Part shown: one piece after another, positions 5,066 to 59,479 of the stretch
Position numbering within the stretch: position 1 is the first letter of the stretch
Layout of the letters: each line of letters begins with the position of its first letter
Assembly (NCBI GenBank): GCA_949152475.1
Contig: OX424562.1
Coordinates: 19,282,209-19,346,208, forward strand
Source of the DNA: Terebella lapidaria
Lineage: Eukaryota; Annelida; Polychaeta; Terebellida; Terebellidae
DNA: 64,000 nt
Reading direction: 5' to 3'
Made by a program: the position numbers and the translations under genes
Notes under the pieces: generated by a model
Seen by the model: the letters and a program-made list of their open reading frames with translations, nothing else
Told to the model about the DNA's origin: nothing
Database searches by the model: none

Positions 5066-7476
5066 AGGTTACCGGACCTTTGGTCCGATAACCTATTGGC
5101 ATGGCGTTGCGTCCGTCGTCCGTCCGTCCGTCCGGCCGGCGTTAACATTTTTATCTTTAAAGTTAACGATCGAATCTTTCTGAAATTTTGCAGAAAAATG
5201 CCTAAAAATATTTTGAGAAGGAGGTATTTTTTTGTTTTTTGATTTTCGCATTTTTTTCAAAATGGTGGCCGTTTTTGTCGAAAAACGCTCAATTTTGGAC
5301 TTTGACAGCCATTTTCTCAAAAACTGTCTGATCAGTTTTGAGTTTTTGGTTTCAAAAGATTCCCCTCATATACCTCTGTGATATGTATAAGTTTGGACGC
5401 CCTAAATTCGCCGGTTTCCGTGTGGCGGCCATTTTGAATTTTTGGCGGGTCGGCGAAAAAAATTTTTTTCGCCCCAAACCGCATTACTATCCATTTTGGG
5501 CCATTTCTAGGCAAAAAAATTTTTTCAACATTTGGAAAAAATTTTGGACTTCGAAAATTTTCGGCACTTTTTTCCTTCATAATGGGAGCTGTCCGGACTG
5601 TACTCATAGAACGCTTGAGGATAGAGCTTAGAAATTGGCACTTTCAAATGGGAAGTCATATATGGCGACTTGTGTGGTGACCTTGAATTTGACCTTGGAT
5701 GACCTTGAAAAGTCAGAACAGCCATTTTTGGGTCGAAAAATGCCCAAATTTACACCTGGTCTGTATTTTCTCGGAAACTGTCTGATCAATTTTGAGATTT
5801 TTGTTTAAAAAGATTCCTCTTATATACCTCTGTGACGTGTATAAGTTTTGTTGCCCTTGTATCGCCGATCTCCGTGTGGCGGCCATTTTGAATTTTTGAC
5901 GAGTAGGCGAAAAAAAAAAATTTCGCCCCTAATCGCATTACTATCCATTTTGGGCCATTTCTAGAGAAAAGAAAATTTTCACCCTTTGAAAAAAATTTTG
6001 GACTTCGAAAATTTTCGGCACTTTTTTCCTTCATAATGGGAGCTGTCCGGACTGTACTCATAGAACGCTTGAGGATAGAGCTTAGAAATTGGCACTTTCA
6101 AATGGGAAGTCATATATGGCGACTTGTGTGGTGACCTTGAATTTGACCTTGGATGACCTTGAAAAGTCAGAACAGCCATTTTTGGGTCGAAAAATGCCCA
6201 AATTTACACCTGGTCTGTATTTTCTCGGAAACTGTCTGATCAGTTTTGAGATTTTTGTTTAAAAAGATTCCTCTTATATACCTCTGTGACGTGTATAAGT
6301 TTTGTTGCCCTTGTATCGCCGATCTCCGTGTGGCGGCCATTTTGAATTTTTGACGAGTAGGCGAAAAAAAAAAATTTCGCCCCTAATCGCATTACTATCC
6401 ATTTTGGGCCATTTCTAGAGAAAAGAAAATTTTCACCCTTTGAAAAAAATTTTGGACTTGAAAAATTTTCGGCACTTTTTTCCTTCATAATGGGAGCTGT
6501 CCGGACTGTACTCATAGAACGCTTGAGGATAGAGCTTAGAAATTGGCACTTTCAAATGGGAAGTCATATATGGCGACTTGTGTGGTGACCTTGAATTTGA
6601 CCTCGGATGACCTTGAAAGGTCAGAACAGCCATTTTTGGGTCGAAAAATGCCCAAATTTACACCTGGTCTGTATTTTCTCGGAAACTGTCTGATCAGTTT
6701 TGAGATTTTTGTTTAAAAAGATTCCTCTTATATACCTCTGTGACGTGTATAAGTTTTGTTGCCCTTGTATCGCCGATCTCCGTGTGGCGGCCATTTTGAA
6801 TTTTTGACGAGTAGGCGAAAAAAAAAATTTTCGCCCCAAATCGCATTACTATCCATTTTGGGCCATTTCTAGACAAAAAAAAATTTTCACCCTTTGAAAA
6901 AAATTTTGGACTCGAAAAATTTTCGGCACTTTTTTCCTTCATAATGGGAGCTGTCCGGACTGTACTCATAGAACGCTTGAAGATAGAGCTTAGAAATTGG
7001 CACTTTCAAATGGAAAGTCATATATGGCGACTTGTGAGGTGACCTTGAATTTGACCTTTGATGACCTTGAAAGGTCAAAACAGCCATTTTGGGGTCAAAA
7101 AATGCCCAGATTTGCTTCTATAGATTAAATGCTTGCAGATAGAGTTCATGTTTGCAGTGTGAACATATAGGAAGACATATATGGCACAACTAATGATGAC
7201 CTTGAACTTGACATCAGATGACCTTGAGTGCCAAATGTCTGACTCGGAATGTGTAAATTGACCTGAGCGGCCTAAACGATTCCACCCAGATATATCTTTG
7301 TATTATGAACATATAGAATATCAAATACCGCACACATACATGTATAATATAATGTAATGGTAACATCGAAGTTCACACGGATGACCTTGATTGGTAAATC
7401 TCAAGGTCTGTTACCTGCCTATGCTGCCATGGCCAAACCAAAATTGTCCGGTAACCTATCTTAGCCTTTGGGCTAA
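5066..7476 (+). mobile_element. Family 1 terminal-hairpin element with 454-bp tandem core
   Basis: The left end is a near-perfect palindrome (5067-5093; arms GGTTACCGGACC and GGTCCGATAACC around TTT), followed by a GTCC-rich simple tract (5108-5140). The core is four tandem units of 454 bp. The right end carries the complement CCGGTAACC (about 7449-7457) and then a hairpin, TTAGCC/GGGCTAA, at 7461-7476. It is flanked by T on both sides. No coding frame of its own is visible, so it is probably non-autonomous. A one-unit inverted relative is at 22994-23830. Hairpins at both ends, T flanks and tandem cores resemble Helentron/pearl-type elements; the class assignment is inference. Confidence 0.75.
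5290..7108. repeat. 454-bp tandem repeat, four copies
   Basis: Identical landmarks recur every 454 bases. For example, the complement of one ATG falls at 5605-5607, 6059-6061, 6513-6515 and 6967-6969. The units are nearly identical (a few substitutions and A-run length changes), so amplification is recent. Each contains the string GGTGACCTTGAATTTGACCT followed by GATGACCTTGAAA, giving two TGACCTTGA words per unit. Short minus-strand frames of 91 and 66 codons recur in each unit but look like passive open frames. Confidence 0.95.
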
Positions 7477-9506
7477 TTTTTCAAGAAAATAAGAAGCTGA
7501 TACATAATGTTATGACTTGCTTCAGTTTTCAGGAGTAATTTTCCCTTATAAAGGCACGTTAAGCCTCTAATACCTTCCAGTTGATTTAATTCAGATCTCT
7601 CCCATATTTTGACCAAGTTTTTCAGTTTTCTGGGAAGGACTTTCGAAGAATATTACCGGTATTTGAAGTTGATCGTAGTTTGCCTCTTGGACAATGTATT
7701 TTTTTTTGCCGCTAAAGTAAATTGATAACGAAAACCTGGACGGTGCATATCTTTTTTGTGTTTAGATGAGCGCATGTGTCAGACGGATATGGGAGCCAAA
7801 ATTTTTGTTTTGAGTTTTCATGATTTCAAGCGACACATTGGGAATATTGTATGTAAATATCATGCAGTATTAACGAGTGCTATGATTCCTAAACCATCTT
7901 AGCATAGTGTTCACCATATTTTGTTTATGTTCATCTGTATGCTTGCATGTAACTAAATAATATCTTGCATGCCAAAGTTTTAATACCTACGTATATTTTG
8001 TTTATCATTTTTTCATCTATGGTAGTCAACAAGTGTGTAACACTTATGTATAACTTACCGTTATTTTCTATTGAAATGTAAGTTTGCCATGTACGTGTAT
8101 ACAACATTTATTTTCAATCAAACTGAAGCATCTCGTAACAATAACTTGCTGAGAATCTGTGACATTTTCATTATTTTTTTTATGTATCAAGCTATAGCCA
8201 TATAGTGCCATCTTATAAAAACTAAAAAATATTTATGAGTTTGCAGAAAAGAGACAATAAGGACTGCTGAGAACATCTATATATATATATATATATATAT
8301 ATCCCTACAACATTTAATTTGTGTGTTTGATTCATACAATAATCTCAATTGTATTAACACATTGATCATAAATTATATAGATTATTTTATCCTGTCAGCA
8401 AACTTTCCCACCTCCTTTTCTAAGCATTTACTTTGTATCATTATAAACATTGATCTGGTTTTAAAATGACATGGTTTCTATTCACGTGTAACATATACCG
8501 TATAGCGACTATAGCGTATACATATAGTTAGATTCCTGGATTCTATAGCAAGATTTCTGTCAATTTTGTGTGATAAATGGAATGTGCAAATCAGGCAGGA
8601 ACAGGTCTGTAATATTCTCCCCTAAAAATGAAGAATGATTCGCACTGCGCCCCCCGACTGGTTGAATAAGGAACTTGTATTTTATGATTTCCTGATTGTC
8701 TTGATTGTGTACATGTTCAATAATTACCGTCTATTGTTCCGATGAGGAAACTTTTTTGCTCCTTCACTTGCCCCTTTAATATATATTCCTAACATCTAGG
8801 ACCGGAAAAGTTGAACACCCTGTACTTTGAAAGAAATATCACTGTGTTGACCAATATATTGTCCTTCATTATGCCACTTGATGCTATTCGATGTTTAAGA
8901 CGGAAACACTGTCAACTTGTAAGTTATCTTTATTATAGAATTTCCTGGATTCATTGTTCGTCCTGCCTTTTTATAGGCTAGCCCAGTGCTTCAAGTTGTG
9001 CCTTGTATTAAGTGTGATGTCAGTTTAGGGATTCAACTGTTGTCAGAAGTAATTTTTGTAATAGATCTATATACACTGTATATTTATCTGTGTGCGTGTG
9101 AGTACCATGGATTATTTTTGCACGTTTTGTTTTTCTCTCGCATCGTAAAAACAGAAAATTCAAGCTTGCACGAGAAATATAGCAAAAGAATTTTCTCGAA
9201 TTATCACTAAATCAGACATCAAGAATTTCTTATTTTCTTTCAATTGAAGGGAAATGTTGGAAGTTATTGTCATATAATTGTGTCCAGTTTGTTAGGACCA
9301 TGTATGTTACTTTGGTGGATTTCGTGTCACTGTGCTGTGCAGTCACATTAGCCTAAAGCAGCCAAGACGGAAAACTGTCCAGAAAATGAAATAAACTTTG
9401 TTGCGGTAAAGGTTCAATTGTGTTTTATTCTGTCAACTTTCTCGCCAATTTAAGTAGTCAGCCCAATCTATGAATAGAACCTTGAACAATATGGTAGATC
9501 TAAATT
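7477..9506. other. Intergenic AT-rich sequence
   Basis: No recognisable gene. It contains a dinucleotide AT run at about 8277-8302 and scattered short open frames without conserved content. The first 30 bases directly flank the family 1 element. Confidence 0.5.
8277..8302. repeat. (AT)n microsatellite
   Basis: About thirteen AT dinucleotides in a row within otherwise unremarkable AT-rich sequence. Confidence 0.9.
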
Positions 9507-9695: not shown

Positions 9696-9750
9696 AATTT
9701 AAGGAAACCAACAAGAAGGAGTACGTGGGGTTGGTCGGGTGGGCACTCTG

Positions 9751-10262: not shown

Positions 10263-11350
10263 TCAAGGGGTGACAACGCTACGAGCAGCTACCAAGGGCC
10301 CGAGGTGGTAGCCCTCACTCCCCGTCCACGTCAAGTCCCTAAGGTAGAAAGATGTAAAGGTGTTATGGGATTGCCATGAACATGCTTGCATGACCTGATC
10401 GAGGGGAACCCGTCCCATATAGGCAAGGAAGGCCGCCATGGCCCTAACATCATGGGCGCGTACCTTGAACGAACAGGCGGAGATCTGCTCAGCCAAATCA
10501 AAGCAGGTGCGGATACATTTTTGGATCCAGGATGAAATGGTAGTTGGAATTTCAACTGATGTGATATGAACAACAGCCGTTTGCCAGCCCGGAGACCTTT
10601 TGTCCGCTTAAGGTACAAGTACAATGCCCGCAATGGGCATAGGAGACAGTCTTCCTCTAGATTCGGGCCTACAGACGACGACAAGGCCGGTAACGTGAAA
10701 GCCAGTGGGGGAGATGATGCAAGCTGGGTTTTTGCCAGGAAAGACGGGATGACCTGCAAGGAGACCTTGAGGCCATCCTCTCGCCATCGAACTTTTGAGA
10801 AATCCAATGCATGGATTTCGATCTTGCGCTGTCCGGAAGCCAGAGCCAGCAAGAAGACTGTTTTCCAAGTAAGGAACTTCAGAGGGGCAGAGGACATAGG
10901 TTCGAAGGGAGCAGACGCCAAACGGTTCAGTACCAGGGATAGATCCCACTCCAGAACGGAATTACGAGAAAGCGGACGTTCGACTTTAAAGTTATTGAGC
11001 AAGGCACTCAGATCTTGATCCTCGCCGAGATTAACGCCAGTATGGGGCAAGATAGTCTTGGCCAGAGCGGTCCTATAGCCCGCTAAAGTCGAGGGGGCCG
11101 CGCCCGTCTGAAATTTCTCCAAGAGGAAATCAGCTACGGTCTGATCTGTGGCGTGGAAAGGATCAACCTGCCTGCCATCACACCGAGCAGTGAAGACTCG
11201 CCATTTGGACTCGTAGACTCCCAAGGACAAGTTTCTATTAGGGCGGGCGATCCTACTGGACACTTCTGAAGAAAATCCCTTTGCTCGAAGGGATCGCTGG
11301 ACAGAAGCCACGCGTGGAGGCTCAGGCTCCCGGGTCGGCTGTGAAACAGC
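10263..11350 (-). pseudogene. DIRS tyrosine recombinase, frameshifted
   Basis: The recombinase follows the methyltransferase-like domain in the same frame (open 12394 to 10331), starting near RAKGFSSEVSSRIARPN. The first catalytic Arg region reads SGQRKIEIHALDF. After GKRLLFISH the frame shifts (about 10500-10560). The last part lies in the frame of 10496-10263 and has the HxxR box (RAHDVRAMAAFLA) and the Tyr motif FTSFYLRDL. The domain is therefore complete in motifs but split by at least one indel. It is clearly diverged from the recombinase at 2679-3767, so the two DIRS are separate lineages. Confidence 0.88.
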
Positions 11351-12394
11351 CCGGGGTTGCTTGAGAAGATCCTCCCAAGGGGGTAGGGCCACTGGTTGAT
11401 CTATCAGCAGACTCAGAAGTTCTGGGAACCACGGACGCTGCGGCTGATATGGGGCAACCAGGAGAATTCGGCACGTGTGAGACCTGACTTTGGCCAAGAC
11501 TTTGGGCAACAGAATTGCTGGAGGGTATGCATACCCGAACATGCCGTCCCAGTCCATGGACAATGCGTCGATTGACATCGCGAGAGGGTCTGGAAGTGGA
11601 GAAACGAACACCGGAAGCTTGTTGTTCCACCTGGTCGCAAAGAGATCCACCGTAGGACGGTCCCACCAGAGGCACAGGGAGTTGAACACCCGAGGATGGA
11701 GAGACCACTCCGTTGGCTGGATCTGCCCCCTGCGGGACAGCTGATCGGCCAACACATTTAACCGACCCGGGATCTGACGTGCTCGCAAGTGAATGCTTCG
11801 AGCCCGGCACCAGAGAAGAAGCGTCGTGGCTTGCCGACATAGGGTAACCGACTTCGTACCTCCCTGTTTGTTGATGTAGGCCACGACAGTGGAGTTGTCA
11901 GTGGACACCAAGCAGCACGACCAGCACACTCCTCCTCTCAGTGGCCCAGGGCCAGCGAAACCGTCTCCAACTCCAAGCGGTTGATGTGCCACGAACTCTC
12001 GGGCTCCGCCCACATCCCGGAAACTTCCTTGAAATCCAGGTGCCCTCCTCAGCCCTCCGTAGATGGCGGAAGGGTGAGCCCTGAGTAAGATTGGTGGTGG
12101 ACATCCACCACATGATGGATGCCTTCCCTGCTGGGGAAAGGACGACCAGTTGCTTCGGAGAACCAGTGGCTGCTGTCCACTGAGAACGAAGGTCGATCTG
12201 CAATTCCCGCATGTGGAGTCGACTGTAAGGGACCAACTTCTCGGTCGCCGCCAGCAACGCGAGCATCGACTGCCAGGTCTGGGCTGACTGACTGGGCTCG
12301 TCCAAGAACCTGCGGAGCAGGGGCCGTATCTTTGACAGACGCTCCTCCGTCGGGAAAACCATACCCAGCTGGGTTTTGTACCGATACCCCACAA
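11351..12394 (-). pseudogene. DIRS RNase H and methyltransferase-like domains
   Basis: STDNSTVVAYINKQGG and ARQIPGRLNVLADQLSR mark RNase H. VDLFATRWNNKLPVFVSP and YAYPPAILLPKVLAKV mark the methyltransferase-like (DAM) domain. The first part of RNase H (LRRFLDEPSQSAQTW...) is read in the frame of 12392-11898, and the rest in the frame of 12394-10331, so a frame change lies near 12050. Here the domain block and the recombinase share one frame with no stop between them, unlike the overlapping frames of the plus-strand DIRS. Confidence 0.85.
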
Positions 12395-13340
12395 ACGAAA
12401 TCCCGGGCCGGCGTTAGCTCAGATTTTTGGAGGTTGACAAACAGGCCCATGCGTTTGCACAAGTTCAGGACCCACTGTAAGTGCCGTGTTAGGACCTCGG
12501 GGGACTGGTGATAGATAATCCAGTCGTCCAGATACTGGTAGAGGAGGATGCCCTCCTTGTGGGCTAGTATCTGTAGCTCTTTCACAACCATTGTGAAGAT
12601 CCATGGAGCCGGGGACAGGCCGAATGGCAGGGCACGGGACTGATACACGGTGCCCTGGTGCACGAAGCGCAGGTATCTGCGGGAGCCTGGGTGAATTGGG
12701 ATGTGAAAGAATGCATCCTTCAGATCCAGTGAGACCACCCAAGAGTTTTTTGGAAGAGACAAGTGGATCGATTCCGCCGTCTCCATGGCGAGCTTGGGGG
12801 TCTTGACGTGGCGGTTTAGAGATGACAGGTCGATCATGGGACGCCACCCGCCTGAGTTTTTGGGGGTCAAGAACAGGATACTGTAGTAACCGGGAGAGGA
12901 TATTCCGACTTTTTCGAGCGCGTTTTTGGCCATCATATCGGCGATCGTGAGCGAAAGCGCTAACCGTTTGGCGTGAGCTCCGGGAAGCGAAAAGGGAATG
13001 GGCTCTAGAGACGCTGACTGAACTGTATACGAAACCCCCTGCGAAGGACCGACACGATCCACGGGCTGGCTCTGAGTGTCTGCCACTCTTGCCAATAATT
13101 TACCAGACGCCCGCCCACGGGCTCGCTTGAATTTTGAAACGAAAGTGTGACAGCCCGAGGTATCGCGGGGTCCGCCACAGGGAGCGGTATCTGTGAAACA
13201 CTCACCTGCCGCGGGGGCGGAGGACTTTTTCTCCCCTGCTGGCTTGGGCTTGCCCTTGAGCCCGGACTTCTTCTTCGGCTTACTGCCAGCAGGGGTCCCC
13301 CGAAAGGGCTTCTTGTCCTTCTTCTCCTTGGGCTTGGCCA
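12395..13340 (-). pseudogene. DIRS reverse transcriptase, split over three frames
   Basis: The N-terminal RT part (SSEPVGGRLVNYWQEW, WIVSVLRRGF) lies in the frame of 13550-13005. The central part (NSGGWRPMIDLSSLN, SWVVSLDLKDAFFHIP, RALPFGLSPAPWIFT and the catalytic YQYLDDW near 12520-12540) lies in the frame of 14571-12049. The following GYRYKTQ segment is in a third frame from 12392. Indels near 13010 and 12395 explain the changes. Catalytic residues are preserved, so the decay is recent or these are assembly errors in GC-rich sequence. Confidence 0.88.
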
Positions 13341-14571
13341 ACTGCTGAGGCTTGGAGGAAGGTGGGGCGTAAGCCTGGAGAGGAGAGGCCAGGCGCTTGG
13401 CGATGGTCTCGGTAAGCAGCTTGCTAGCGGAGACGGACTCCTCCTGACGGGCCAGCTCACGAGCTGCCGGCAGCCTGGACTCCAGACCGGCAAGGAAGGG
13501 CGGAGGAGATGAAAGGGCAGCAGCAGCCTCTGGTTCCACCAGTGGAGCACAGTGTAGCTCCGTGACTAAGGCCGGGGGAAGCTTAAACTTGGCCTGGCTC
13601 AGAAAGTCATCCCGCCTCAGCAAGTGGAGGACCCACTCCACGTACGTGGTCTGTTCCATGCGGTGAGCTGACGCCAGGTCGCAGGACTCCAAGAGTTGGG
13701 AAGCCAAACGGAGGTGGTCCCCGAGGGACGCTAACTCAGTCGGAGGAGACTCCAGGGCATCCAGCGCTGTCTGAGCACACTGTAACTGGCAGTAGGCCGC
13801 GGTCCGGAACCAGTCCCCCAGGGAGGACACACAGGTAGCTGCTCGGGCGGCATGATTCAAGGAAAGCAACGTCTCAGGTTGCACCGTAACTGGGCGAGCC
13901 TTGTCTCCCAAGTAAGGGGCTGCCGCCTCAGGGAAGACCGCCGGCTTGTCTAAGTAATCCGGGTTAGACGGGAGATAGTCTCTCTTGCGGAAAGGGGGCC
14001 GACGGGGAAACTTCCCCAACTCCGTCTTTCCCTGGTCCAAGGTCTCGGTACGGCGCCGTGAAAACTCCTCTCGGAGCCCGTCCGGGATGGGGAGGCCACG
14101 TCGTGGCTGTCGCTCCGGGGAACGCTGGGATGCCAGAAGAGACGTGGGATGCTGGGACACTGCGGGCTTCGGCTCGGCCGGGAAGAGGGTGGGTTCCAGT
14201 GTGGAACGCACTAAGTCCAACTTGTGGTCGAAGGAAAGATCCTCCTCCCCATCCTCACTGTCCACCGGCTCAGCGTCAAGTCGAGGGCACTTGTCACTGG
14301 GAGCCATCACGGAAGCCGCCACGGAAGAGGGTCGCTTCCTCGGAACTGAAACCAGTGGTGTGGGCCCAGCAGACGTAGAAGGGGTAGCCTCGTCCTGCCC
14401 GCACGCAATCGAGTCCTCCCCCGAGTCCTCGTCAGACTCCTGACCAAAGATCTCCGCAGGTAACTGCTGTGGAGGCTCCAAGGCCAAAGTATGCCGCAAG
14501 GCCTCAGACGCGGGGGGAAGGGAAACACCCGCGCGAGCGTCCAAACACAGCCGTGAAGATGCTGGACACAT
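13130..14571 (-). pseudogene. DIRS gag-like region
   Basis: The open frame from 14571 encodes an acidic N-terminal region (ESDEDSGEDS), a structured middle (SLNHAARAATCVSSLGDWFR..., THYVEW-like and LLRRDDFLSQAKFKLPP segments) and a Lys-rich tail (KEKKDKKPF, KKKSGLKGKPKPAGEKK) just before RT. It aligns in position and general character with ORF1 of the plus-strand DIRS, which shares RRDAFLSSLKFEVP and PAGEKK. No enzyme motif is seen; a nucleocapsid-like role is inferred. Confidence 0.75.
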
Positions 14572-14599: not shown

Positions 14600-15795
14600 A
14601 GACGAAGGGGGGGGGGGGGGGGGCGAAGATACCACCTGAGAGGGACCTGGCAGGGTAGGCACAGCCGCCGAGCTTTTCATTACGGTGGGGGAGGCCAACG
14701 AGGCTGTCAGCGCCGAAGAACTCTGCAAAGAGAAAGAACCGGTAGAATTCTCCATAGTAGCAGGTGAGAGGGTGGCTTGAACAGGCGGAAGGCAATCCTG
14801 CTTCCCGGGGTCTGACACCCCTGGCCCAACAAGAGGTCTCTCCGTCGAGAGAGCCTGCCAACCTAGGGACCAAATCCCCTTAAAGCGGATGGACCACCTG
14901 TCAACAGCGCACACCCAAGGTCCGGATCCCGTAGGACGGGGGCCGGACCCCGAACGGGCCGAGGCAAGGCAGGAACAGCACGAAGAGTCGATTGTTGGAC
15001 CCGCACCCCGGGACCCGGCCCCCGAAGCACGGGGGCCGGCCTCTGCGACTGAGGCTGTGCCAAACGCAGAATACCCGAAGGGTCGGGGTCCGCACCCCGT
15101 ACGGGGCCCGGACTCTGCGACTGAGGCTGTGCCAAACGCAGAATACCCGAAGGGTCGGGGTCCGCACCCCGTATGGGGCCCGGACTCCGCGCCAACACAC
15201 TAACCAGACCACTGCCATGCCGGTCCACTCGAAGCCCCTGGACCGGGGGGCCGGACCCCGAGGGCCGGAAACCGAAAAACGGTGGGAAACTGGCCAGATA
15301 AGGCACGGACGCAGCACAGGGAACCTGCTCGCCGATAACTACTGAGGTGACACGCGCAAACAGGCTCCCAGCTGACGGAACATGAAATACACAGTGAAAA
15401 GACTCCCGGGGCGCGCCACCGTGGGTCGAGTGTGACTCTCCCACCAGCAGGTCACCCGCGGAACAAAACAAAGGGGAAGAAAACTTAGCTCCTATGCAAA
15501 CCAGGGTGCGATCCAGCTTGCCCAGCAGAGCAGAAGCTTTCCTCTCCTGACGGCGGCGACGCTTGGCCGACGACGCTGAAGACGAAGAGGACGGGGCCGG
15601 AGACACCTGGCGCGACTGAAGCTTGTCCCTCCTAGCGAGAACGGCCCCAAGGACCGGAGCCCACTCCTCCCGCGTACGGTCCTCGCATAAACCGCAAGTT
15701 AACTGGTCTGTGTGTACCGGATCCTGGAAAAACACGCATTCCGTGTGAACTTCCCAGGCCGGCAACTGTTGCCCACACTGGGCGCAGCGGCGCAT
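14600..15795 (-). pseudogene. DIRS ORF1 N-terminal region with Cys/His cluster
   Basis: An ATG at 15795 begins MRRCAQCGQQLPAWEVHTEC, followed by TCGLCEDRTREEWAP. The CxxC...HxxxC...CxxC spacing suggests a small zinc-binding module, and the next segment is Ser-rich then Arg/Lys-rich (SSSASSAKRRRRQERK). The open frame extends 39 codons upstream to 15912, but that part is hydrophobic and overlaps the leader. Downstream the coding signal changes frame; ATMENSTGSFSL and DVSSIFTAVFGRS are read in the frame of 14914-14504. A run of 17 G (14607-14623) separates this from the gag block and may be the site of the frame change. Confidence 0.7.
15041..15184. repeat. 72-bp tandem duplication inside DIRS ORF1
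   Basis: Two copies of a 72-base unit (15041-15112 and 15113-15184) differ by one base. The length is a multiple of three, so in sense orientation it duplicates 24 residues (motif DPSGILRLAQPQSQ) without changing frame. Confidence 0.95.
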
Positions 15796-22900: not shown

Positions 22901-24211
22901 AAAGTACTGGTTCAGTTGATGTCAAATATATCATACCGGTACATACTTTTTATTCGCATGTATGGCTCATGCATACACAGTATTTTTCGAAAATTAGCCC
23001 AAGGGCTAAGATAGGTTTAAGGATTTCAGGTGACATATGACCTTGAGATTTACCAATCAAGGTCATCTTTGTGAACTTTAATGTCACCATTAGGTATGCT
23101 GCATATGACTTTATATATGTTCATAATACACACATATAAGCTCTATCAACAAGTGTTTTGTCTGTAGAGGCCAATTAACACATGTCAGGTCAGGTTCAAG
23201 GTCACCAACAGATGTGCCATATATACATGACTTCTTTGAAGCTTATACACATTCCTAACCTGTATGTGCAAGTGTTTAAGCCTGAGAGGCCAATGTCAGA
23301 TATTTAACGTCAGATATTTAGCACTCAAGGTCATCCGAGGTCAAGCTCGAGGTCAACATTAGTTGTTCCATATATGACCTCCTATGTGCTTATAATGCAA
23401 ACATAAGCCTTACATACAAGCGTTCCATCTGTAAAAGCAGATTTGGGCAAGTTTTGACCCCAAAAAGGCTGTTTTGACCTTTCAAGGTCATCAAAGGTCA
23501 AATTCAAGGTCACCAGACAAATCGCCATAAATGACTTCTCATTTGAAACTGCCAATATCTAAGCTCTATCTTCGAGCGTTCTATGAGTACAGTCCTGGCA
23601 TTTTTCGAGAAAATGGCTGCCAAAGTTCAAAATTGTCCATTTTTCGACAAAAATGGCCGCCATTTTGGAAATACCCCCTTCTCAAATTATTTTAAGGTAT
23701 CTTTTCCCAAGTTTTCAGAAAGATTGGACTGTAAACTTTAGGGATAAAAATGTGAACGGCCGCCGCCAACGGACGGACGACAAACGCAATGCCACGGCAA
23801 TAGGTTATCGGACCATAGGTCCAGTAACCTAAAAATACTCCCTTCTCGAATTATTTTAAGGTATCTTTTCCCAAATCTCGATTGAGGATAGAACTGCTTG
23901 GTTTCATTTGCATTACAATATCTGAAAACCCTGTTGGCTCGTATATCCATATACTGGTACACATACATAATACATACCTCCGCCTTCTATAGCCTCTCCC
24001 ATTGTCATTTTCTCGAAATCTTTGAACATGTCATCGAAGTGTCTAAAGACGTCGAACATGTTCCCGCCGAATAATCCCATCCCCGGTAGCCGCTCGTCGA
24101 AGCCTGGAGCGTCACCATGGCGATGGCTGGGGTCGACTTCACTGAAGTTCGGGGCTCCAAAGAATTCAAAATCAAATGGTTGTTGGCTGTTGTTGTCTTC
24201 GTCACTGCGCC
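16989..24211 (-). CDS. HAX1: HAX1 (HCLS1-associated protein X-1), first exon missing
   Basis: Six exons join in phase with GT..AG introns: 24211-23978, 18641-18496, 18249-18195, 18009-17840, 17559-17406, 17149-16989 (TAA at 16991-16989). They give 305 residues plus a missing N-terminus, since exon 24211-23978 starts inside a codon. HAX1 is an anti-apoptotic regulator mainly associated with mitochondria. Recognition rests on LRDRMLKEPDS (vertebrate HAX1 has LRDSMLKYPDS), FKSVSVRTYRSADG, VEERKSIQDGRG and ETTITR, plus a Phe/Asp-rich segment (FDVFRHFDDMFKDFEKM) like the acidic part of HAX1. Two PPRPPPP blocks in exon 18641-18496 are Pro-rich. The C-terminus (SIFKNLFGQSFPGFPSDLS) differs from vertebrates. 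The short exon 1 expected to encode the conserved MSxFDLFRGFFG-like start was not found upstream. Intron 18642-23977 contains a family 1 element. Confidence 0.88.
18650..22990. other. Large HAX1 intron, unannotated part
   Basis: Intronic AT-rich sequence. It has G runs at 22324-22340 and 22441-22452 and open frames without recognisable content (for example 20737-21057 and 21229-21792 plus). I see no convincing gene here. Confidence 0.5.
22994..23830 (-). mobile_element. Family 1 terminal-hairpin element, single-unit copy in HAX1 intron
   Basis: Inverted relative of 5066-7476. The palindromic end is at the right (about 23803-23830; GGTTACTGGACC-type on the minus strand) next to a GGAC-rich tract (23770-23783). 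The TTAGCCC/GGGCTAA hairpin is at the left (22994-23009). It has only one core unit and is more diverged than the other copy. It carries at least six TGACCTTGA words in either orientation. Outside both ends are T/A runs consistent with T-rich insertion sites. Confidence 0.75.
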
Positions 24212-24549
24212 TGTGAAAATAGAACATTGCACATCTTGCTGTAAACTAGACGCTTCCGGTCGCCTACGACCGCTTGGGTGTATCCCCCGTAGCCCTATCA
24301 TCTCTGTTGCCCCAAATATATCGCTGTCAATTGTGAAAAACTAGAGTAAGGGCTAAAAAAGATTACCAGAGAAATGTTAAATCTCAAGTCACAACTGTTT
24401 TCTTTTCCCCACCAAAATTGCTGCACTGATTTTCCGAGGTTATTGAAGGTCGAATTCAAAATCACCACTGAAATCTCTTTATATGAATTTCCATTCGACA
24501 TGTTTGATAAAATAACGAAAATACAGATAGATCAATCTTTTCACCTATT

Positions 24550-26350: not shown

Positions 26351-26589
26351 ACTTATTCAGTAATATTGTCCTGTTTTCACTGGAAACTTCAGTTCTCCAT
26401 TCTGAACAAGAAACCAGTGTCATTACCTTCCACTGTACAGGCTATTGGAATGATCGTACATGTCAAAATGGATATTTCAAAATTCTGTAATAAGTTAGGC
26501 TGTTAACATATTAATATGTATATGATCATTCTAAAAAACGATTGGTTTCGTGTGACAGCCCTTCCCAACAACACTTCCAAATATTATCG

Positions 26590-44441: not shown

Positions 44442-47400
44442 ATGTCAGATGATTTGCCGTTATCTGTCAAGGTATGATACAGACTCTACGTACTTTCATG
44501 TGACAAACTGCAGCCTCCGCGTCGTTTGGGCTGGACCCACTGTTACACTAGGGGGCCCAGTTAGGGAAAGGGGCAAATTTGACAACTCTTGGGGAGTTGT
44601 CAAATTTGACAAAAGTAGCCAAATTTGACAACTGTGGGGTTGGTAAATTTGGGTACTCAAATAAACTTATCTTTTTTTCTCGAGTAATCGGTGTTTGGTG
44701 CATTACTTTTCCCCTTTCAACTAAAGTACTGGTACTAATAATGACAGTAACATCCCAGGTTTTTGGTGCAGCGTTGGACGCGCCTGTAGCTCAGAAATTT
44801 ATTTGCTACTTCAAATGAGATTATCTTGCAGACAATATACACTTGCAGAAGACTTCATTTTATCAACTTCATTAGATGTCCATTGATAATTTAGTTATAA
44901 CATTTTTTTTTGGATATTGGTCCAATACCACGTACCCAAATTTACCAACCCCTGGTCCCCAAATTTGGGTACTGTTGGTAAATTTGACAACAGTCCCCAA
45001 ATTAGCTCCTTTCCCCAACTGAGTGGGCCTACAAAACGAGTAATAGTATATCAACAGTGATCAGTTCAATACACACAGACACTTACTAAACAGCTAAAAT
45101 CAAGTTAATGTGTCAGTGACAGTGAACATGCTTTCTTTGGCCATAGTTTTGTTTTGGATCATCAGATCAACTTGAAAGTTTGTGTGTCTCAATTGTTTGT
45201 CAGACTCAATATAGCCTAATTCTTTGTGAAAATTATCAGGGCGTGTATTGAGCTATTCGAATGTCATGACTCAAATGAATTGTTCACCAAATTTCAGAAA
45301 TCTATCTTAAAAAATAAAAAATTGTGAGAAGTGTATTCGTGAACGTACATGATGTATATCGATGTAAATTAGACTGTGGTACGTACTACCCGTACTCGTG
45401 ATCGTCAATTTATTAGTTGCATTGTTAGTATTTGTTACTCAAGCTTACTTTTAGATGGTTATATCAATCAGTCTATTTTATAGGTATTTCAGGATATTCT
45501 AGATCATATTACAATTTATCATAAATTTATATTATCTTGTGTATTTACATTGATTATTATAATCAAATAAAATATATTTACAATATATGTATAGTTCAGA
45601 TGTATAGTTTATGTTGTTTCATGTTCACTTTCAGTGGAAGTCGGTGGTGGATTTCCTAAACTGTCCAGTATGTATGTGTCAGATGACCTCCACATACATG
45701 ACGCCATGTGGTCATCGGTATTGTGAGAAGTGTATTCGTGAGTGTATCGATCGCCACCGAAAATGTCCATGCTGCAACAAACCAATCAAACAGGAGCAAC
45801 TGATCAAAGACCACCAGTTCGATGACCTTGTTTGTAAGTTTTTAATTGTTGTAAGGGGGAAAAAACTGTTTTCTATTTCCTGAATTAACAAGTTTTGCTG
45901 TTCACCACATGCATTTTTGTAAATCTACCCTTTGCAGCAATATGCTTCAACGAGAGGGAAATGTCTGAGAAAGAATATTTTGATAATCTTGTCAACTCAG
46001 GTAAGTAAAAAATCACATGTAGAATATAATATTTCAAGAGTATCGCTGATTTTGATCGTATATGTTCACATGTTGTGTCATGTTTGTAAATGGTATAATC
46101 ATACTACATTATATGATTGACATGTTTTAGTGATATTTTTGCCTTCCTTCAAATAAATGTTCATTAATGTTATATTTTGATATACATGTATTTCTAGCGA
46201 GTAATCAAGCAGAGAACGGTCAACAGAATCCTCTACATAAAGTATTATCTCCAGTCGAAACAGTACTCAAACGTAGGTAATGTTTTGAATAATGTAAGAA
46301 TCCTTTATGGTACGGATCTAATTAATACTTGGTTGGTAATTAAGGCATTTCGGCAGAAATGCAAGGCATTTCGGCAGAAATGCCTTTATGGTTTTAGCAG
46401 AATTTTTTTTTTTTTTTTTTTTTTTCCTTCTTCCGCCACTTTTGGTTTCCGGACGATAACTTTAGATTGCATTGACGGATCCTTGTCAAATTTTCACCGC
46501 AAGTCAGAAATGATATGAGGAAGAACCCTATTCTTTTTGAGCCGGATCGGAGGTCCGTGAGGTCCGTGAGGATGAAATCAAGGCTAATTTTAAGACTTGG
46601 TTTCCGGACGATAACTGGAAAAATATTTATGCAATAGTTGCAGAACTCTGCATGGAGGTTCATATGCCACCAGGGAAGAACCCTATTGATTTTGGGATCG
46701 ATCCGTCAAACGACCTTTGACCTAGAGGTCAAAATAATTTTTTGCTGATTCATCCTTGAGGCTTCCTGCATATCTCGGAAACCGTGCGTCGTAGAGCGAA
46801 ACGGACGTTATTTTCGGACTCGTCGCCCTAGACAAACATCTCTAGGGTGTACTTTTTTTTTTGATCCGGCTCCGAGGTCCGTGAGGTCCGTGAGGATGAA
46901 ATCGAGGAACTTGGTTTCCGGACGATAACTCAAAAAATATTCAGGCAATAGTTGCAGAATTTTGCACGGAGGTTTATATATCACCAGGGAAGAACCCTAT
47001 TGATTTTGGGATCGATACCTCAAACGACCTTTGACCTAGAGGTCGAAATAATTTTTTGCTGAGTCATCCTTGATTCATCCTGCATATCTCGGAAACGGTG
47101 CGTCGTAGAGCGAAACGGACGTTATTTTCGGACTCGTCGCCCTAGACAAACATGTCTAAGGGGTATTATGGATGAACTTTGACCTTGACCCGAAATTTTT
47201 TTGCCGAGTCGGCATTTTTCGTTTTCGTCGATATCTCGGAAACGGTGCGTCGTAGAGCGAAACGGACGTTATTTTCGGACTCGTCGCACTAGACAAACAT
47301 GTCTAAGGGGTATTATGGATGAACTTTGACCTTGACCCAAAATTTTTTTGCCGAGTCGGCATTTTTCGTTTTCGTCGATATCTCGGAAACGGTGCGTCGT

Positions 47401-50400
47401 AGAGCGAAACGGACGTTATTTTCGGACTCGTCGCACTAGACAAACATGTCTACGGGGAATTATTGATGAACTTTGACCTTGACCCGAAATTTTTTTGCCG
47501 AGTCGGCATTTTTCGTTTTCATCGATATCTCGGAAACGGTGCGTCGTAGAGCGAAACGGACGTTATTTTCGGACTCGTCGCACTAGACAAACATGTCTAA
47601 GGGGTATTATGGATGAACTTTGACCTTGACCCGAAATTTTTTTGCCGAGTCGGCATTTTTCGTTTTCGTCGATATCTCGGAAACGGTGCGTCGTAGAGCG
47701 AAACGGACGTTATTTTCGGACTCGTCGCACTAGACAAGCATGTCTAAGGGGTATTATGGATGAACTTTGACCTTGACTCGAAATTTTTTTGCCGAGTCGG
47801 CATTTTTCGTTTTCGTCGATATCTCGGAAACGGTGCGTCGTAGAGCGAAACGGACGTTATTTTCGGACTCGTCGCACTAGACAAACATGTCTAAGGGGAA
47901 TTAAGTCTGGTTTTTTTTTTTTTTTTTTTTTTTCTTCTTTTTTTTTTACTTTCCGCCGTTTTGGTTTCCGATCAATAACTCGGGAACGCCTGAATGGATC
48001 TTGTCCAAATTTACACCACTGGTCAGAAATATTACATGGAAGACCCCTATTGTTTTGGAGGCGGCTCCGGGGTCCGTGAGGTCCGTGAGGATGAAATCAA
48101 GGTTTATTTTGAGACTTGGTTTCCGATCGATAACTCAAAAAGTATTCATGCAATGGCAAATATTCTATGCATGGGAGTTCATATACCACCAGGGAAGAAC
48201 CCTATTGATTTTGGGATCAATCCGTCGAACGACCTCTGACCTAGAGCTCGGAAGAATTTTTGCTGATTCATCCTTGAGGCTTTCATGCATATCTCGGAAA
48301 CGGTGCGTCGTAGAGCAAAACGGAGCTCAATTTCGGCCTACTGGCACTAGACAAACTAGTCTAGGGGGTATCTTGGGTCGAAACGACCCCTGGTGTCGAA
48401 TTTTTTTTTGCCGAGTCGGCACTTCCTGTTCGGCCGTATCTCGGAAACGGTGCGTCGTAAAGCGAAACGGAGCTCAATTTCGGCCTCCTGGCACTAGACA
48501 ACTAGTCTAGGGGGTATTTTGGGTCGAGACGACCCCTGGTGTCGAATTTATTTTTTCGCCGACTCGGCACTTCCTGTTCGACCGTATCTTGGAAACGGTG
48601 CGTCGTAGAGCGAAACGGAGCTCAATTTCGGCCTCCTGGCACTAGACAACTAGTCTAGGGGGTATTTTGGGTCGAGACGACCCCCGGTGTCGAATTTATT
48701 TTTTCGCCGACTCGGCACTTCCTGTTCGACCGTATCTCGGAAACGGTGCCTCGTAGAGCGAAACGGAGCTCAATTCCGGACTTCTGGCACTAGACAAACT
48801 AGTCTAGTGGGTATTATGGGTCGAGACGACCCCTGGTGTCGAATTTATTTTCGCCGACTCGGCACTTCCTGTTCGACCGTATCTCGGAGACGGTGCGTCG
48901 TAGAGCGAAACGGAGCTCAATTCCGGCCTTCTGGCACTAGACAAACTAGTCTAGTGGGTATTTTGGGTCGAGACGACACCTGGTGTCAATTTTTTTTTCG
49001 CCGATTCGGAACTTCCTGTTTGGCCGTATCTCGGAAACGGTGCGTCGTAGAGCGAAACGGAGCTCAATTCCGGCCTTCTGGTACTAGACAAACAAGTCTA
49101 GGGGGTATTTTGGGTCGAGACGACCCCTGGTGTCGAATTTATTTTCGCCGACTCGGCACTTCCTGTTGGGCCGTATCTCGGAAAGGGTGCGTCGTAGAGC
49201 GAAACGGAGCTCAATTCCGGCCTTCTGGCACTAGACAAACTAGTCTAGTGGGTATTTTGGGTCGAGACGACCCCTGGTGTCGAATTTATTTTCGCCGACT
49301 CGGCACTTCCTGTTCGACCGTATCTCGGAAACGGTGCGTCGTAGAGCGAAACGGAGCTCAATTCCGGCCTTCTGGCACTAGACAAACTAGTCTAGTGGGT
49401 ATTTTGGGTCGAGACGACCCCTGGTGTCGAATTTATTTTCGCCGACTCGTCACTTCCTGTTCGACCGTATCTCGGAAACGGTGCGTCCTAGAGCGAAACG
49501 GAACTCAATTACGGCCTCCTGGCACTAGACAACTAGTCTAGGGGGTATTTCGGGTCGAGACGACCCCTGGTGTCGAATTTATTTTCGCCGACTCGGCACT
49601 TCCTGTTCGACCGTATCTCGGAAACGGTGCGTCGTAGAGCGAAACGGAGCTCAATTCCGGACTTCTGGCACTAGACAAACTAGTCTAGTGGGTATTATGG
49701 GTCGAGACGACCCCTGGTGTCGAATTTATTTTCGCCGACTTGGCACTTCCTGTTCGACCGTATCTCGGAAACGGTGCGTCGTAGAGCGAAACGGAGCTCA
49801 ATTCCGGACTTCTGGCACTAGACAAACTAGTCTAGTGGGTATTATGGGTCAAGACGACACCTGGTGTCGAATTTATTTTCGCCGACTCGGCACTTCCTGT
49901 TCGACCGTATCTCGGAGACGGTGCGTCGTAGAGCGAAACGGAGCTCAATTCCGGCCTTCTGGCACTAGACAAACTAGTCTAGTGGGTATTTTGGGCCGAG
50001 ACGACACCTGGTGTCAATTTTTTTTTCGCCGACTCGGAACTTCCTGTTTGGCAGTATCTCGGAAACGGTGCGTCGTAGAGCGAAACGGAGCTCAATTCCG
50101 GCCTTCTGGCACTAGACAAACAAGTCTAAGGGGTATTTTGGGTCGAGACGACCCCTGGTTTCGAATTTATTTCCGCCGACTCACCACTTCCTGTTGGGCT
50201 GTATCTCGGAAACGGTGCGTCGTAGAGCGAAACGGAGCTCAATTCCGGCCTTCTGGCACTAGACAAACTAGTCTAGTGGGTATTTTGGGTCGAGACGACA
50301 CCTGGTGTCAATTTTTTTTCGCCGACTCATAACTTCCTGTTCGGCCGTATCTCGGAAACGGTGCGTCGTAGAGCGAAACGGAGCTCAATTTCGGGCTGCT

Positions 50401-53400
50401 GGCACTAGACAAACTAGTCTAGAGGGTATCTTGGGTCAAGACGACTTCTGGTGTCGAATTTTTTTTCACCGACTCAGCACTTCCTGTTTGCCGTATCTCG
50501 GAAACGGTGCGTCGTAGAGCGAAACGCAAAGATGCCTTAGGGTGGGGTATGTCACTTAAACTTTGACCACGGACAGTTTCAGAGTCATCATGGTTCTAGA
50601 CACGGTCTCTTAGGTATATGTTAGCTAGGAATAGAACTCACACGAAATGCCCCAAGGCATCTTCAGGCCTTGACGTCTAGTTATTGATGAACTTTGACCT
50701 TGACCCGAAATTTTTTTGCCGAGTCGGCATTTTTCGTTTTCGTCGATATCTCGGAAACGGTGCGTCGTAGAGCGAAACGGATGTTATTTTCGGACTCGTC
50801 GCACTAGACAAACATGTCTAAGGGGAATTATTGATGAACTTTGACCTTGACCCGAAATTTTTTTGCCGAGTCGGCAGTTTTTGTTTTCGTCGATATCTCG
50901 GAAACGGTGCATCGTAGAGCGAAACGGATGGTATTTTCGGACTCGTCGCCCTAGACAAACATGTCTAGCGGGTATTATGGATGAACTTTGACCTTGACCC
51001 GAAATTTGTCGACATTTTTCATTTTCGTCGATATCTAGTATTATAAATTATTCATCACACCGAAATGCCTCCAAGGCATCTTTAGGCCTTGACGTCTAGT
51101 TTTTCCATCGGTCATCGCCATTTTACCAAAAATGCAGATAGTATGTCTAATATTGATGCATTTGCATTTTTCATTTCAATATTCTCACTGATTATCACTT
51201 TTATTCGGCAGAGCATCTCCGAAACAGCTTGTCAGCACATGAACGATATTATCAGGTTAGTCTGCCTTCACTATGAAAAGCATAGTTTTCGTCCAAAAAA
51301 CATAACAATTATGTGCCATGTATTCAAATTTGTTAAAAGTCAGTCAAACAAAACATGTAAAATAGAACTTTTTTCTTCCAATCTTCACTGTTTACAGGAA
51401 CTGAAGGTTGAAGTGGACAAAAAGAAAAAGCAGTTACAGATTGAGTACATTTCTCTCAAAGATGACTTGTATAACAAGAGCCTGAGTGCACATGGTGAGG
51501 GAATTAAATACCTCTCGCTCCATTATCAAACATTGATCAAATCTTAGATTTGTATTTATAATATGATGTATACTGGTACATGTATCAATAATTCTTACTT
51601 TTTGTATTCTTTTGATTGTTGATTGTTGAAAAAGGTTTTGTGGAGTGGAAATAATCAGATGTATATCTGAAAAATATGATGCCTGTGTAATTTAGTATTC
51701 ACGTATTATATGTGAATATTCACAGTTCTTAAATAATTTTGTCCACATTTAGATATATCATTGAGAATGGAACAACTGCAGGCTGAACTCAACGAACGCG
51801 AACAAAAACTTGAGGAGGATTTCGTCAAGTGCGGTCACATGGTGGCCGAAGCTTTTGACAAGTATGCTGCGAGTTTGCACTGTTGGGACACATTTATACT
51901 ATGCTTTCCAAATCTTTATGTGGTGGAAAATCACAGAATAATTTCAGAAAAACTTTTGGCAGAATCAGTGTGAGTTTCAAGGAAAAATTCTGTTTCTTTA
52001 CACATGCAGATACCTGACGGAACACATTCCAAATCTCTCTATTTTGCCGGTGACAATCACTGTCAGTTTGCTGAACAAAGGCGTGCAGATTCCAGATATT
52101 CATGTCAATCCCCATGACAGGTAAACTTAATTTCCACAATTACCTACCGGGTACTTGTATAAAGTATTCTGATGGCTGAATGTTACAACTTCTGTTGCGA
52201 AAATATACACTACTAGTAGTACATTTTTGCAACAATGTAATTTTCCATATTTCATGGGTTGGCTTATATCCGCGAACATGCTAAAATCATTTAGTGAAAT
52301 TTAGATATATCGGTAGCTAATACCAAGTAATTTGATGATTTTATGACATATTCCCAGCCTGGACGATATCAAGACCGTGATTCGCCGACACATGGAGGTC
52401 ACTGGTGACCGGGTCATTGAGTTCAAACCAGATGTCCAGTTCCTGTGCTTCGGGTGAGTGAAATATCGAGTCAAATTTTGAAATGTTTGTTGAATGAATC
52501 TACGTGTATATTTCATTTTATTTATCAGGTGATTTATAGTGTGTTCTGTATTGGAGAAAATAGTTTGTTCAATAAATGTTGTTGAAATTTTTTTTGCGTT
52601 CATAACTTATTCAACTGACTCTAATATATTGTCATGGTTTTACTGTATATTTCTAGCCCACTGGCCAAACGTAGTCTGTATGAGATGCACAGAATGGCCC
52701 ACGATGTGATAGAACTGGGAGCTACACATCATGATATCGCAGTCCTTCCAGCCCACTGCCGGCCAATATTACAGTTCCAGATGGTACGTCATCAATGAAA
52801 GTCCTAGCACAATCAAAGAAGAAAATTGATGAGAAAAAAAATAACAGAATAATATATTTTTGCAGAAACCCGGCAGTGATATTGCGGTGTTCGGGCAAGT
52901 CACATGCAGCAGTGACCTACCAAAAACTTGCTTCGCGACGACTTTTGAAGCCAACAAGGGACTGACCGTCGATTACTTTGCCTGTCGAGACTGCAAAATG
53001 AATTGTTAGTTTTTAGAGTGTTGCTCGCTGTAATACAAAATTTTGTCAGATTTACTGGTAGTTGTATTTGTTAAAAGGTTGAAGATTTTTAAAAATGCCA
53101 GAATATTAGCAATAAAATTTTTATATTTTTGCACATATTAGACACTGAATAAAATTAAAATTTTAATTGAATTGAATATAACGAATCTTGACACTTTTAA
53201 TGAATATTTTTCTCCAGGGGTGTGCCGTTCCTGTATGGATGTGTGTCATAAAGGTGCGTAGATGTATACAGGTACCATACATGGTGAAGCAAGTGTGAGA
53301 TGTTGTTATTATTAAAAGATAATTTTTTTTTATGTCTGGTTAACTTGTGGTAATGCTTGACACTCTTGCTTTTTTTCGCAGATCACCAAGTTGTTCCATA

Positions 53401-55270: not shown

Positions 55271-57517
<2,247 letters not shown>

Positions 57518-58777
57518 GATTCCGCTGAATTTAGAAATTATATTTCAACTTGGGCCCACTTGGGCGTACATGTAGGATAAATGGTTAATTTCTGTTGACG
57601 TAGATATATGCTTTAATGATTTAACCATGTATGCTATATGCCAGTTTAACAGGTTATAAAATAGCCACGTAATCCAACACAGCAGGTGCTCCATTTGTTG
57701 ATTTTATAACCAAAGTTTTGATTGTATTATATATTAGCAATGTCACTGTGAGGGCCCTATGGCAATTATTATATAAACTTGCGATGTGAGGATTCTTGCT
57801 GGTGAATCGCAGTGTAAATAGATACCAAAGGACCCAATATGTTTTATTAAACTTGTTTTATCCGATGACAAATTCCAGTATTATTATTTTCCACAGAAAA
57901 TCTACTCAAAGTACAAAGTGTCAAAAAGCAGACCACAGACGAGCGTCCTTGAAAAACATCATATTTAGCGGACTGCGGTTCTTGTACATGTAGTCATGTA
58001 CAGTTTACTACGGTACCCTTGAACCCTGTTTCAGCGTGCACACTGCATGATTCTGAAAATTCTCGTGGACGTGAATTCACTGGGGATACCAGGGTATTGT
58101 GTTTATATTTTGTCCACGCAATTCATCGGCTCAATATTAGAATTGATATGTTTCCCATGGGCATCAAATCTATAAATAAACTGAACTTATATATATCAAA
58201 TGCCGTCACTGGTCTTTGGGTATATCTTGAAAACTGGAGAGTTTGATCTTCTGTTTTCATGTCAAACACCAGCTAAAAATTTGATATCACAGGAATTAAT
58301 CAAATTTCCAATTCTATCATGATCCTGTAATAAAGAATTCGTACCCATTGCATTGAGTCTGAGAAAGGACTGTCACACAAATTAATTTTTTTTGCACGAC
58401 AACTATACTTACGATGTTCAAAGCAGATTTTCTTTCCATTCAATTTATTTCATCTCACATAATATATATTCGTTCTACAAGCATATGACCTATGCATGCA
58501 TATATCTTGATATATTTTAAAAAAATTTTGGTCGTCATGTTTAGTGGTATGCAGTTTATATGATGTTAAAGTTAAAATTAAAGTAAAGGGGGCAGGGGTT
58601 GTTGATACATGATACATAAGTTCTGCTTCAGACATTCCTTTCAACAGTTGACCGGCTGATGTCAGAATAAAAAGTTGTGTCAGACTGGAAAGGTGTGACC
58701 TTCCTCATTTGCCACTATACATTCAAATGTAATTAACCTATTGGCCACCACAAAGACCACACAACTACGGTAATTAT
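57518..58777. other. Shared upstream region of NUDT12 and KRTCAP2, left part
   Basis: Region between the two divergent genes, before the family 2 insertion. No coding content is recognised. The NUDT12 promoter should lie in the first few hundred bases. Confidence 0.45.
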
Positions 58778-59479
58778 TAAGGCATTTCTGCAGAAATGCC
58801 TTTATGGTTTTGTTTCTTTTTTCACTTTTTGGTTTCCGCACAATAACTTCAGTTTGCCTCAATGTATCTTCGCCAAATTTTCACCACTGGTCAGAAATGT
58901 TATGTAGAAGAAGCCTATCGTTTTTGAGCCGGCTCCGGGGTCCGGGAGGTCCGTGAGGATGAAATCAACGTTTTTGGTTTCCGCACGATAACTCAAAAAG
59001 TATTAAGGCAATGACTGTGAAACTTTGTATGGAGGTTCATCTCCAGGGAAGAAGCCTATTGATTTTGAGGCCGATCCGTCAAACGACCTTTGAGTCGGAA
59101 TTTTTCGTTTTCGTCGATATCTCGGAAACGGTGCGTCGTAGAGCGAAAAGGACGTTATTTTCGGACTCGTGGCCCTAGACAAACATGTGTGAGGGGTATT
59201 AGGGAGGAAATTTGACCTTGATCTGAAATATTTTCGCCGAGTCGGCATTTTTCATTTTCATCGATACCTCGGAAACGGTGCGACTTTGAGCAAAACAGAC
59301 ATTAGACAGATAGTCTTAGGGGTATCAAGTTTGTCCTTCACATATATGTAATTGCACAAATGTCATATAAGTTATAGGTCTCATTTTGAGCTTCATCATG
59401 TTTTTGCTGAGTCAGCATTTTGTTTTTTTTCATGCTTCACCCTGAAATGCCTCCAAGGCCTTTAGGCCTTGACGTCTAG
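58778..59479 (+). mobile_element. Family 2 element, short copy between NUDT12 and KRTCAP2
   Basis: It starts TAAGGCATTTCTGCAGAAAT (terminal palindrome), runs through the unique region with two GGTTTCCGCACGATAACT blocks, has only about one and a half type A core units (TCGGAAACGGTGCGTCGTAG), and ends in a GGCCTTTAGGCC hairpin and GACGTCTAG at 59479. T lies on both sides. It is about 700 bases against 2.8-4.8 kb for the others, showing that length variation is in the core. Confidence 0.85.

Follow-up and report, generated by a model that had tools for sequence, protein, structure and literature searches.

In a 64-kb stretch of the genome of the polychaete Terebella lapidaria (C8:19282209-19346208, hereafter the window), three families of repeats, called here families 1, 2 and 3, share one layout, in which a terminal palindrome is followed by a simple-sequence tract, a tandemly repeated core and a terminal hairpin. 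These families are very probably non-autonomous rolling-circle transposons of the Helitron2/Helentron group, known as HINEs. The common layout is confirmed, yet it is no novelty: oysters, mites, flies and fungi are already known to contain elements of this kind. Families 1-3 are new families of a known kind, with a very high copy number. Thousands of high-copy repeats of this genome are thereby placed in a known class, with exact ends for three families. A sequence-only reading of the window had proposed the order palindrome, tract, tandem core for the three families, and this order is confirmed by the mapped positions and by genome-wide counts of the exact family 1 and family 3 palindromes, for which reversed controls gave 0 matches. 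The arrays of 454, 147/148 and 168 bp were also found where that reading had placed them.

Architecture and recurrence of the three families

The elements located in the window are the following (coordinates within the window):

5061-7476 (+): complete family 1 element, both ends mapped and folded, tandem array located
22994-23835 (-): second family 1 element (minus-strand coordinates 40172-41007), 3' hairpin retained, 3' subterminal inverted repeat (subTIR) worn
24246-27082 (-): complete family 3 element, with TT, palindrome at 27052-27080, 3' end at 24246 and terminal GAAGCGTCTAG
24337-24373 (-): worn family-1-like 3' end within the family 3 element
31235-34685 (-): family 2 element, palindrome at 34659-34683, 3' end at 31235, hosted by a 129-bp tandem array
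46340-51099 (+): outer family 2 element, with a doubled palindrome, poly-T, 314-bp and 147-bp arrays and a 3' CTAG
47901-50680 (+): inner family 2 element, inside 46340-51099, 5' palindrome lost
58777-59479 (+): short family 2 element, with TT, palindrome at 58779-58802, 3' subTIR at 59444-59451, hairpin and end GACGTCTAG

The complete family 1 element begins with TTTTTA, followed by a palindrome at 5067-5093 (arms of 12 bp with a single C.A mismatch, loop of 3 nt) and by a tract of the GTCC type. Its core array comprises 4.0 units of 454 bp (5311-7113). A 3' subTIR (7445-7456) then precedes the 3' hairpin TTAGCC-TTT-GGGCTAA (7461-7476), whose last bases, CTAA, close the element at 7476; TTTTT comes next. 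The family consensus is TTTTTA-GGTTACCGGACC-loop-GGTCCGATAACC at the 5' end and GTCCGGTAACC-TWTC-TTAGCC-loop-GGGCTAA at the 3' end, the next base being T. Thirty pairs of family 1 5' and 3' ends were found in 300 kb (34 rows minus 4 junction artefacts of 49-51 bp), using a palindrome search that tolerated up to 5 substitutions; this sample is non-random, consisting of the window and 24 stretches picked around family 1 palindromes.

In family 2, the 147/148-bp arrays sit in both long elements (46340-51099 and 31235-34685), the first of which consists of two copies, one nested within the other. The palindrome of the outer copy (46342-46386) is present twice through a 21-bp tandem duplication (46342-46383). 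The consensus ends are TT-AAGGCATTTC-loop-GAAATGCCTT and GAAATGCC...AAGGCATCTTTAGGCCTTGACGTCTAG, again with T as the next base. The loop measures 4 or 5 nt, so that the 3-base loop which the sequence-only reading gave to each family holds for families 1 and 3 but not for family 2.

In family 3, the tract (GTCCGC, or GCGGAC on the other strand) lies at 26974-27034 and the 168-bp array (2.1 units) at 26614-26964. More arrays follow at 24529-26361, and the 121-, 132/163- and 168-bp arrays are all inside the element. Its 3' subTIR is at 24280-24289, and a 3' hairpin at 24257-24272 stands just before the 3' end at 24246, although a terminal hairpin had been reported for families 1 and 2 only. The consensus is TT-GTATCCCCCGAAC-loop-GTTCGGCGGATAC (loop of 3 nt) at the 5' end and CGGGGGATAC-ACCCAAG-CGGTCG-loop-CGACCG-GAAGCGTCTAG at the 3' end, with T next. 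The three families therefore have the same kind of 3' end. Each 3' end also carries a copy of the subTIR, a feature absent from the earlier description.

The terminal sequences of the three families differ, as first described, but the absence of any shared sequence does not hold: the terminus CGTCTAG is common to families 2 and 3, and family 3 contains family-1-like parts. The worn family-1-like 3' end near the family 3 3' end recurs in another stretch (L025), and 96 bp of family 3 (24403-24498) are 74% like the family 1 core. Such a 3' end within family 3 would be expected of a read-through chimera. A related fourth family, with GCTTACCGGCCC, was found in stretch L024.

We then searched the whole genome (761.6 Mb, 438 contigs) for these ends. 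The family 1 arm GGTTACCGGACC has 15770 matches against 80 for the reversed control, and the exact full palindrome occurs 11461 times while the reversed pattern is never found. Likewise, the exact family 3 palindrome (2377 occurrences) and the family 3 3' end followed by T (2160) both gave 0 with reversed patterns. On C1 below 23.62 Mb, where 100 family 3 palindromes and 94 3' ends were sampled, 64 palindromes are accompanied by a same-strand 3' end at no more than 5 kb, and wrong-strand 3' ends are absent at this distance; for another 12, the 3' end is 5-25 kb away. The inferred lengths fall between 1.26 and 3.13 kb for 57 of the 76 pairs. Satellite arrays merely adjoining chance palindromes could be invoked, given that long tandem arrays do exist. 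This explanation is already refuted, and has next to no chance, in view of the thousands of exact palindromes against none for the reversed pattern, the pairing of 3' ends on the correct strand only (in the part examined) and the empty sites described below.

In DNA folding, shuffled sequences (200 per hairpin) did as well as the 5' hairpin in 0, 1 and 0 cases for families 1, 2 and 3, and as well as the 3' hairpin in 18, 2 and 15 cases, respectively. The 3' hairpin of families 1 and 3 is therefore unremarkable in energy, and its support comes from recurrence. Covariation in the palindrome is weak. From 55 aligned rows, 5 were dropped and 50 kept (19 distinct); six cells show changes on both sides, a value reached in 14 of 500 shuffles, and 75.9% of the cells are paired, a share reached in 3 of 500. 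A de novo scan for the layout, run without a shuffled control, yielded 51 rows, which included many family 1 elements and some artefacts of core repeats. No Rfam family matched within the window at gathering scores, and the open reading frames (ORFs) inside the elements look like readings of the repeats, judged by appearance.

Insertion sites and head-to-tail chains

To locate the insertion point, the flanks of an element were joined without its own TT and compared with paralogous sites. For family 3, the joined flanks of one copy (L017) align gap-free with two sites, at 97% over 118 bp (L011) and at 96% (L014). For family 2, the joint of a copy in L020, compared with array units, is identical in L032 (92% over 101 bp), and the flanks of 31235-34685 match a unit of the 129-bp array (31163-31046) at 88% over 118 bp without gaps; this join is gapless against some 129-bp units and gapped against another. 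The joined flanks of the inner copy 47901-50680 equal the array unit at 50808 at 40 of 40 positions. Four family 1 copies occupy one T-run site of family 1 sequence, which recurs empty many times, mostly as T7 (a five-T linker was used for this join). Insertion falls in front of T, and no duplication beyond T residues is needed.

The bases around the ends agree with this position. ATT stands upstream of 2176 of the 2377 family 3 palindromes genome-wide (A before T: 91.5%); locally, it precedes all 6 family 3 5' ends and 7 of 8 in family 2, and TT follows 6/6 and 11/12 of the 3' ends, respectively. In family 1, the T run is preceded by mixed bases (A in 26 of 44). Insertion between T and T without duplication, as first proposed, is thus supported with regard to the adjacent T and the lack of an ordinary duplication, whereas families 2 and 3 insert mostly at A|T.

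The same data bear on whether the elements could be cut-and-paste miniature inverted-repeat transposable elements (MITEs) bounded by terminal inverted repeats, in which case the poly-T flanks would be target-site duplications. Inverted repeats are present at both ends, and most copies have T on either side, which could represent a duplicated TT or TTTTT. However, the repeats are asymmetric: the 5' copy is terminal and folded, and the 3' copy lies 20-34 bp inside, ahead of another hairpin. When the T are counted as part of the element, the two flanks together match the empty site without any gap. Moreover, the number of 5' T in family 1 is nearly fixed (exactly five in 22 of 30 full copies and in 29 of 44 5' ends), while that of the T on the right ranges between 2 and 11. 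Neither the symmetric repeats of DDE-type MITEs nor, apart from a possible one made of T alone, their fixed-length duplication was found, and we consider this origin very improbable. The empty sites and the near-fixed number of 5' T also sharpen the position of the element ends and of the insertion, which were left open for HINEs, owing to their T-rich targets, in PMC4067079.

In a survey of about 65 distinct 5' ends (126 matches, most palindromes being counted on both strands), seven head-to-tail junctions had only T (plus A for family 1) between a 3' end and the next 5' end, against a roughly estimated chance expectation of 0.1. Four of these junctions join family 1 to family 1, two join family 1 to family 2 and one joins family 1 to family 3, i.e. 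three cross family lines. Such chains suggest that every copy creates a new target. They also count against three independent systems with a convergent layout, for which it can be argued that the terminal sequences differ and that an autonomous partner was found for none of the three families. Yet the order of parts, the last bases CTAR and the T target are identical, the chains cross family lines, and family 3 holds a family-1-like 3' end, which makes convergence extremely improbable. The view that one kind of transposition machinery lies behind the layout stands, and it fits the rolling-circle (Helentron/pearl) type.

Helentron genes and place among known elements

The terminal features tested match those of Helitron2/Helentron, except that families 2 and 3 favour A|T. 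HINEs have subTIRs, palindromes at both ends, a terminal T and T-rich targets (Thomas et al. 2014, PMC4067079), with a subTIR of 12-15 bp near the 5' end, or 11-12 bp in oyster, that is either self-palindromic or matched by a complementary inverted repeat (PMC4067079, PMC7492417). In all three families, the 5' subTIR forms a self-palindrome with arms of 10-13 bp, and a second subTIR is followed by a 3' palindrome. Insertion at T occurs without target duplication and the assignment of the terminal T is ambiguous, as in PMC4067079. The palindromic subTIRs, the microsatellite with tandem repeats, the terminal T and the lack of duplication are all shared with HINE/DINE-1 elements (PMC4067079), the differences being the A before T in family 3 (91.5%) and the CTAG end of families 2 and 3. 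Similarly, Helitron2 is defined by two hairpins and asymmetric terminal inverted repeats (Bao and Jurka 2013, PMC3627910), with hairpins at both termini (PMC5148889), and asymmetric terminal inverted repeats, hairpins at both ends and a 5' T are found here. In Helitron2 as here, the repeats of 8-15 bp are asymmetric, the first forms the 5' hairpin after a 5' T, and the 3' repeat lies immediately ahead of the 3' hairpin (PMC3627910). The target of Helitron-1N1_CRe of Chlamydomonas is TTTT / T or C (PMC3627910), whereas insertion here is before T, and mostly after A in families 2 and 3.

In the Cg_HINE elements of the Pacific oyster, the parts follow one another as subTIR, inverted repeat, GTCC-type microsatellite, tandem repeats, subTIR and palindrome (PMC7492417). 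The order is the same here, as is the TT target; the comparison is one of layout. This full order being published, the suggestion of an under-described system does not hold. The same goes for hairpins at both ends as a distinguishing mark, which are in print for Helitron2, HINEs and oyster HINEs (PMC3627910, PMC4067079, PMC7492417).

Canonical Helitrons (Helitron1) start with TC and lack a 5' hairpin, while TT or TTTTTA and a hairpin are found here. Their CTRR end and A|T target are present in families 2 and 3 (CTAG, mostly A|T); family 1 ends with CTAA, yet has mixed bases before the T run. The mixture of A|T and CTAG with Helentron ends is already noted in oyster and Phytophthora. Proto-Helentron-Pi of Phytophthora combines A|T, a 5' TT and CTAG (PMC4067079), and oyster Helitron-like elements with A|T, CTAG, subTIR and inverted repeat are regarded as possible intermediates, with subTIRs in 257 of 751 and an inverted repeat in a third of those (PMC7992393). 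These oyster elements share A|T and CTAG with families 2 and 3, but start with TC instead of TT, and a microsatellite is present in only one of them, while each family has a tract here (PMC7992393).

We also searched the genome with the Helitron_like_N profile and obtained at least 150 scored places (150 of 234 candidates), about two thirds of which, by our own count, overlie frames of 2000-2866 aa. One Helentron copy, named class A (C14:32.62 Mb), was read. Its ORF of 2310 aa encodes DUF6570 and OTU domains in its first part, and Helitron_like_N (3.6e-34), PIF1 (3.8e-20) and Exo_endo_phos (1.4e-7) in its second part. The Rep motif is RGSPHAH, the Helentron form (PMC4067079). Downstream of the ORF, the similarity with a second copy ends 2 nt beyond a palindrome, TACTTGGCGAAA/TTTCGCCAAGTA, preceded by a microsatellite and a 327-bp array. 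With this downstream side as query (best 40 of 4547 candidates scored), three of five other copies stop at query positions 4836-4840, the palindrome ending at 4834, and many further places match only from 3540 or 3570 onward, i.e. the array and the palindrome. In a second lineage (2302 aa in 4 of 5 copies), five copies have a HINE-type end of this sort at a distance of 10324-10361 nt from Rep (offsets by hand). Two Helentron lineages therefore carry one HINE-type end, that of a fifth family, and the endonuclease domain was seen in the copy read. The ORF is antisense to this end, as reported for Helentron-Da-40 and for Helitron-1_DR (the latter in PMC3627910). HINE/DINE-1 elements have a Rep-helicase (RepHel)-endonuclease partner, with an ORF sometimes in minus orientation (PMC4067079), to which the one end seen for the fifth family may correspond.

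On the upstream side, the second class A copy breaks off within tandem repeats of nested family-1-like elements. Family-1-like 3' ends near the class A Helentron (L037, L038) are common to two copies that are 98-99.6% identical there, and the nested elements seem to travel with it. The search for autonomous Rep/helicase relatives with the ends of families 1-3, as first suggested, found none. With the class A protein, tblastn against the fetched DNA and the window gave nothing outside L033, L034, L035 and L038; these four, which cover the class A Helentron and its other copy, were left out of the tblastn listing. Two family 3 copies of about 10.6 kb were considered as autonomous candidates; the one that was read was rejected, as 2.2 kb from its middle contain a reverse-transcriptase-like frame and not RepHel. 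By eye, this frame (C1:20361000-20363200, L039) presumably belongs to a DIRS element. The other copy, at C1:19.06-19.08 Mb, is nearly equal in length to the first (10624 vs 10626), as if a loaded element had been copied.

Several observations weigh against placing the three families with the Helentrons. The analysis turned up no RepHel element bearing family 1, 2 or 3 ends; the RepHel-linked ends are those of the fifth family, and of these a single end could be mapped. Two of the five other class A copies stop early (query 4764 and 4475), and no Rep is listed near a sixth end of the second lineage (C14:31944966). Textbook Helentrons have TT, in place of which A|T and CTAG are found in families 2 and 3. 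The distance between the 3' subTIR and the 3' end is 20-34 bp, compared with 38-60 bp in mite HINEs (PMC4067079) and about 20-30 bp in Helitron2 (PMC3627910). Of the 100 family 3 palindromes sampled, 24 have no 3' end within 25 kb, and the T runs leave 2 T (families 2 and 3) or about 5 T (family 1) that can be read as a duplication.

Possible transposition route and neighbouring features

The ends, their pairing, the target, the lack of duplication beyond T and the Helentron genes with one HINE-type end of another family are observed, whereas we infer the enzymology and that the resident Helentron enzymes move families 1-3. The 5' end consists of T(n) and a subTIR that forms a hairpin together with the bases after it; the 3' end comprises a second subTIR copy, complementary to the first, a short hairpin and CTAA or CTAG. 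The Rep-helicase-endonuclease of Helentrons from the same genome would nick the element end, and one strand would be displaced by rolling-circle replication, halting at the 3' hairpin. This strand would then be joined ahead of T, mostly at A|T for families 2 and 3 and at the 5' edge of a T run for family 1. As copies are followed by T, the 3' end of each would be a fresh target, which would explain the precise head-to-tail chains.

In families 1 and 3, the mismatch of the 5' hairpin is a lone one, six base pairs from the 3-nt loop, and the 5' repeat pairs with the 3' repeat without mismatch over 10-11 bp. Bao and Jurka (PMC3627910) proposed that 5'-3' pairing displaces the 5' hairpin and serves as a stop signal. 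A rather unlikely reading is that families 2 and 3 are a mosaic of canonical-Helitron features (A|T, CTAG) and Helitron2/Helentron ends, and that the mismatch of families 1 and 3 could favour the swap from hairpin to 5'-3' pairing. Selection for the mismatch in family 1 was considered and rejected: 24 sites (48 strand matches) carry a perfect palindrome, compared with 11461 that have the mismatch, and a change of the same type (A to G) at one control position yields a similarly low count (33), giving no indication that repair is selected against. Plain inheritance may account for the mismatch.

Finally, the window carries some further features. Two GC-rich retroelements with a reverse transcriptase domain (RVT_1) lie at 500-3767 (+) and 10331-14571 (-); by eye, they resemble DIRS-type elements with a tyrosine recombinase, and their second frames have no Pfam match. 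A 72-bp GC-rich tandem repeat (2.3 copies, 15029-15191) adjoins the second retroelement. A frame at 56412-57215 (-) contains NADH pyrophosphatase zinc ribbon and NUDIX-like domains and presumably belongs to a NUDT12-like host gene.

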